Shown here piece after piece: positions 22,941 to 23,036 of a stretch of DNA of 64,000 bases. A model generated the notes under the pieces. The model had not been told where the DNA came from. It searched no databases and saw nothing but the letters and a program-made list of their open reading frames with translations. Both the position numbers and the translations under genes were made by a program. Origin of the DNA: Urbifossiella limnaea (lineage in GTDB: Bacteria > Planctomycetota > Planctomycetia > Gemmatales > Gemmataceae); the NCBI RefSeq assembly GCF_007747215.1, contig NZ_CP036273.1, positions 3,766,322-3,830,321 of the forward strand, given 5' to 3'. Position 1 is the first letter of the stretch. Each line of letters begins with the position of its first letter.

Positions 22941-23036
22941 GCCGAACCAGGCGCTGCAGCAGACGGCGGGGGCGTGTCGGCTTTTCGAGGTCGTAGCTCA
23001 CTCGGCCCCCGCCGCTGCTGAGCTGGGTCGTTCGGC
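22941..23036 (+). other. attC recombination site 1
   Basis: 96-bp imperfect palindrome. The outer boxes GCCGAAC (22941-22947) and GTTCGGC (23030-23036) are exact complements. The inner arms CAGCAG-A-CGGCGGGGGC and GCCCCCGCCGCTGCTG pair perfectly except for one unpaired A, the expected extrahelical base. A looser spacer and a central variable region complete the attC fold. Confidence 0.85.

Follow-up and report, generated by a model that had tools for sequence, protein, structure and literature searches.

Two repeats in a 64,000-nt stretch of the Urbifossiella limnaea chromosome (hereafter the window), attC1 and attC2, are almost certainly the recombination sites of two cassettes in a small Gemmataceae chromosomal integron. 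A first-pass annotation had proposed attC1 as an integron attC. Its boxes, its hairpin, the covariation among sites of this kind and a nearby integrase of the TIGR02249 family bear out that proposal, and we conclude that attC1 is a genuine integron attC.

The outer boxes of attC1, R'' and R', are exact complements (GCCGAAC/GTTCGGC), as annotated. The inner stem is formed by GCT/AGC (22953–22955 with 23021–23023) and CAGCAG/CTGCTG (22957–22962 with 23015–23020), with a GC-rich arm beyond and an unpaired central spacer of 5/6 nt. The unpaired A described in the first-pass annotation was found at position 22963, but it is not the single such base: G22956, six nt away on the same R''-L'' arm, is extrahelical as well. 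Read on the bottom strand, the pair is of the T-N6-C type. The R box had been described as one off the RYYYAAC/GTTRRRY consensus and indeed departs from it at position 4 alone, which is G/C in this family. The crossover triplet is kept, and the departure is a variant mark rather than an exclusion from attC. The start of attC1 recurs in attC2, the common pattern occurring twice in the window versus 0.04 times expected. The R' box of attC2 reads GTTCAGA, which fits a last cassette whose R' box retains the resident 3' flank. An Rfam search of the window yielded no match.

Folding the bottom strand of each site, a check suggested with the original proposal, yielded stable hairpins. For attC1, the fold had an energy of −32.3 kcal/mol (z −3.9) and none of 200 shuffled sequences folded equally well; for attC2, the energy was −35.1 kcal/mol (z −6.5). 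The top-strand folds were nearly as good, with z of −3.6 and −5.2, respectively.

The integron locus

The features of the locus are listed in Table 1. The locus comprises an integron integrase gene, an adjoining attI and two attC cassettes, as in a chromosomal integron. It has the reversed orientation: intI and the cassettes share a strand, with the 3' end of intI towards attI. According to the profile search, intI matched TIGR02249 with an E-value of 4.5e-100 and 335 bits (cut-off, 265). Profile positions 1–77 were matched in one frame and 77–315 in the next, the two matches abutting at 77. The split is a single frameshift that may reflect a real mutation or an error in the sequence; inspection by eye revealed no slippery heptamer for programmed frameshifting.

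The putative cassette promoter (Pc) agrees with the consensus at 10 of 12 positions, with 0.0 such matches expected in shuffles; given this consensus match, it may serve to transcribe the cassettes. A near-identical attI core is also present at 7.758 Mb, where there is no integrase match. The open reading frame (ORF) of cassette 1 had no family match, and the final codons and stop of the VanZ-like ORF of cassette 2 fall within attC2.

Table 1. Coordinates of the integron features within the window.
Feature	Position	Strand	Details
intI (TIGR02249)	21439..22442	+	profile search; frameshifted near 21690; reads towards the cassettes
candidate Pc	22414..22443	+	TTGGCA - 18 nt - CATAAT; overlaps the intI 3' end; points at the cassettes
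attI core	22550..22573	+	ACGCGCGCTAATCACTT-G^TTCGGC; crossover between 22567 and 22568; GTTCGGC 22567-22573
cassette 1	22568..23030	+	GGAGG 22577-22581; ORF 22589-22933; then attC1
attC1	22941..23036	+	R'' 22941-22947; extrahelical G22956 and A22963; R' 23030-23036
cassette 2	23031..23527	+	GGAGG 23041-23045; VanZ-like membrane protein ORF 23056-23475
attC2	23437..23533	+	R'' GCCGAAC; R' GTTCAGA

Sites and integrases across the genome

The first-pass annotation had also suggested a genome search for further copies. On C1, the single 7.80-Mb contig that holds the window, a covariance model built from 53 of the genome's own sites identified about 61 attC sites after reverse-strand echoes and the weakest hits were set aside. 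Among the 53 own sites, GTT was present in all 53 and AAC in 52; the extrahelical G and the extrahelical A were each present in 51, and the unpaired spacer was 5–6 nt. In their alignment, 92.6% of cells were paired and 14 pairs carried double changes. The double-changed cells numbered 137, versus 55 in shuffles (none of 500 shuffles reached the observed value), although some of the sites are related copies, such that these cells are not independent events. The covariation score was 0.255; shuffles gave 0.070, and sliding the partners gave no more than 0.073.

Two intact integrases are encoded on C1 in addition to that of the window, at C1:29277–30257 and C1:2055267–2056694. Integrase remnants lie at 3.917 and 7.767 Mb, with a further weak match at 4.581 Mb. 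Of the 61 sites, 29 form an array at 2.202–2.220 Mb with no integrase match nearby. Hundreds of identical copies unlinked to an integrase had been named at the outset as pointing to another repeat type, and the 29-site array touches on this in part. Nevertheless, its copies are non-identical, they lie at cassette boundaries and the genome contains intact integrases.

Some attC sites are interrupted. An IS110-family element (L047:4409-5623, minus strand) lies within the attC at C1:30927, at the crossover, and similar sequence interrupts the attCs at C1:4539950 and 4546001 at this same position. These insertions resemble the IS1111-attC habit.

Cassettes present at two loci

A 387-bp cassette was found at both 2208160–2208546 and 4581365–4581751 with 99.5% identity. 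The identity begins exactly at GTTCGGC, upstream of which lies an attC at one locus and an attI-like platform at the other, indicating that the sites have moved cassettes. A second cassette (705 bp, 88.9% identity) has one copy within the array and another standing by itself at 6.62 Mb, and its identity also begins at GTTCGGC. To judge from their sequences, these two-locus cassettes match traces of site-specific cassette exchange, and the 99.5% identity points to recent movement.

The cassette boundaries bear on the possibility that the repeats belong to a non-integron palindromic family that resembles attC, such as repetitive extragenic palindromes (REP), bacterial interspersed mosaic elements (BIME) or miniature inverted-repeat transposable elements (MITE). 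Such a family would fit the many scattered copies and the location of the largest array away from any integrase, and the genome does hold another short inverted-repeat family. However, the two-locus cassette breaks at the crossover, and these boundaries already refute a palindromic family. Moreover, the copies divide different ORFs, come after an integrase and attI at several loci, and keep the attC-specific asymmetry of two extrahelical bases on one arm. Finally, the model built from own sites only also detects attCs next to integrases from the Pseudomonadota, Cyanobacteriota and Acidobacteriota. We therefore consider this explanation extremely improbable and retain the assignment of the repeats as attC sites.

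The cassettes at 6.62, 7.46 and 7.79 Mb have a similar upstream flank that ends in GTTCGGC, and there is no integrase match near them. The idea that the lone 6.62-Mb cassette had inserted at a random secondary site was rejected, as its upstream flank resembles those at 7.46 and 7.79 Mb. By its sequence, the 6.62-Mb site looks like an integrase-less attI-type platform. A search within the genus for the corresponding empty site found no orthologous site. The downstream flank of this cassette matches a MITE-like family of short inverted repeats (∼200 bp, many pairs; for example, C1:1186381-1186587). Separately, a promoter-like TTGACC-17-TACYGT is common to the platforms at C1:3917170-3917360, 4528500-4528690 and 4581180-4581372, where it ends 71–74 nt upstream of the crossover region.

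Proposed mechanism

Established integron biology suggests that the attC would adopt a hairpin in its bottom strand. Selection of this strand would fall to the pair of extrahelical bases on the R''-L'' arm (T-N6-C in the bottom strand), and IntI would carry out a single-strand exchange at G^TTCGGC, the partner being attI or a second attC. The underlying anatomy, namely the extrahelical bases, the bottom strand and the G^TT exchange, has been described (PMC2727003, PMC3053210), and IntI1 excises the T-N6-C configuration well (PMC3053210). As the window integrase is frameshifted, present movement of both window cassettes probably depends on trans action of the two intact integrases at 0.029 and 2.056 Mb.

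Several points weigh against this account of attC1 and attC2. The reading frame of the window intI is broken, and 29 of the 61 sites have no intact integrase closer than ∼145 kb. The two strands of attC1 and attC2 fold about equally well; fold energy alone thus does not pick the strand, and strand choice would lean, by analogy, on the extrahelical bases. Lastly, recombination of the two sites has been deduced rather than observed experimentally.

The frameshift in the window intI, together with the integrase remnants, the integrase-less platforms and the transposon inserted into an attC, would suit a decayed integron, with fossil sites that are no longer recombined by any integrase. Against such decay, the genome has two intact integrases, the R boxes and extrahelical bases hardly vary, and the nearly identical cassette at two loci suggests recent movement. 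We thus consider decay unlikely and favour sites that can still be recombined in trans.

Box sequence and host lineage

Position 4 of R' is C in 51 of the 53 own sites and in 107 of 110 matches in Gemmataceae loci, a count in which some loci overlap and a small number of reverse-strand echoes remain. By contrast, the same model found A or G at this position in 47 of 53 matches beside integrases of other taxa. Because this model had seen the boxes, a second was built without them. The box-blind model returned C in 74 of 77 distinct Gemmataceae sites with a readable box; in other taxa, it returned A in 14 of 18, and two of the three instances of C reflected a mis-set box start. The family label was used because the integrase of the locus named Fimbriiglobus is identical to one in a genome of the same family. 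Among Gemmataceae genomes, 77 of 95 have attC sites and 46 of 95 have an integrase.

The integrase faces the cassettes in most Gemmataceae and in two Acidobacteriota loci; it diverges from them in Pseudomonadota and one cyanobacterium. On an IntI tree of 116 integrase rows, the orientation label changes once (support 98/89). The arrangement is divergent at the G036, G063 and G093 loci. In the tree, the integrases of G036 and G093 lie on the divergent side; that of G063 was left out because its in-frame sequence was too short.

Among Gemmataceae integrases that have attCs, most sit in the reversed-orientation clade, as they would if the GTTC box reflected a specificity change of that clade rather than the cassette pool of the host lineage. 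Nevertheless, the GTTC signature is kept in most sites adjoining divergent-type Gemmataceae integrases, and GTTA boxes occur in Acidobacteriota integrons whose integrases are reversed. The signature therefore tracks the host lineage, and a clade-specific origin seems doubtful. Overall, the sequences support the view that the GCCGAAC/GTTCGGC box is Gemmataceae-wide and not tied to the integrase clade. The annotated idea of a lineage-specific box family thus stands, and its label "planctomycete-type" narrows to the Gemmataceae, the scope that was tested.

A further feature of the boxes is GGAGG beginning 2–4 nt past R', found in 30 of 53 own sites versus none of 51 sites from other taxa. Among relatives in the Gemmataceae, GGAG or GAGG clusters at the same offsets and the complete GGAGG is rarer. 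This motif may act in translation as a built-in ribosome-binding site, that is, a Shine-Dalgarno (SD) sequence.

Integrases with a SLOG domain

The intact integrase at 2.056 Mb (L046) carries an N-terminal SLOG domain of the YspA type (PF10686, E 7.9e-20), joined to IntI by a proline-rich linker. A second species of the genus also has four integrase genes with the domain (L177–L180); among 102 genomes, the fusion was restricted to these two species and was found nowhere else in the order. The ratio of nonsynonymous to synonymous substitution rates of the SLOG part was ∼0.2–0.33 between copies, so this part looks maintained by purifying selection. Swapping of SLOG between integrases was considered and is not required: the synonymous distances of SLOG and integrase are similar. 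An internal start codon could conceivably allow translation to skip the SLOG part. We tentatively suggest, at somewhat short of an even chance, that some integrases of the genus carry SLOG such that a nucleotide or single-stranded DNA ligand bound to it may control cassette recombination.

Discussion

Integrons, attC hairpins, reversed integrases and taxon-specific attC models were already known. The new part is a Gemmataceae variant with its own box, a built-in SD and SLOG-IntI relatives; for the box signature and the SLOG-IntI fusion, no description was found in the literature searched, the coverage of which was incomplete. Like the attCs of sedentary integrons, including those of the Vibrio cholerae repeat (VCR) type, the Gemmataceae sites have an R/L box hairpin with an unpaired central spacer, a variable loop, R''-L'' extrahelical bases and a G^TT crossover, and they occur in cassette arrays (PMC2727003). 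In contrast to those attCs, the Gemmataceae box breaks the RYYYAAC/GTTRRRY consensus at position 4, the extrahelical configuration is T-N6-C instead of T-N6-G, and GGAGG often follows R'.

Reversed integrases were previously reported in Treponema (PMC3607928), where the integrase also faces the cassettes. The Gemmataceae integrons differ in host phylum, in their box signature and in the built-in SD. Taxon-specific attC models have been described for 11 taxa, Planctomycetes among them (PMC8352920), and these share the premise that members of one taxon have attCs of conserved sequence and structure. Compared by description, those models appear to give neither a box signature nor family-level resolution. 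The 2.20-Mb array resembles a cluster of attC sites lacking integron-integrases (CALIN) in having 29 attC sites with no integrase match nearby; unlike a CALIN, it shares its chromosome with intact integrases.

GTTCGGC, often followed by GGAGG, provides a clean signature with which to find and delimit Gemmataceae cassettes, one that is tied to the host family rather than to an integrase clade. A built-in ribosome-binding site would make the cassettes depend less on upstream context. With about 60 sites, several platforms and two unlike intact integrases, this single genome offers a natural setting for tests of integrase-site pairing.
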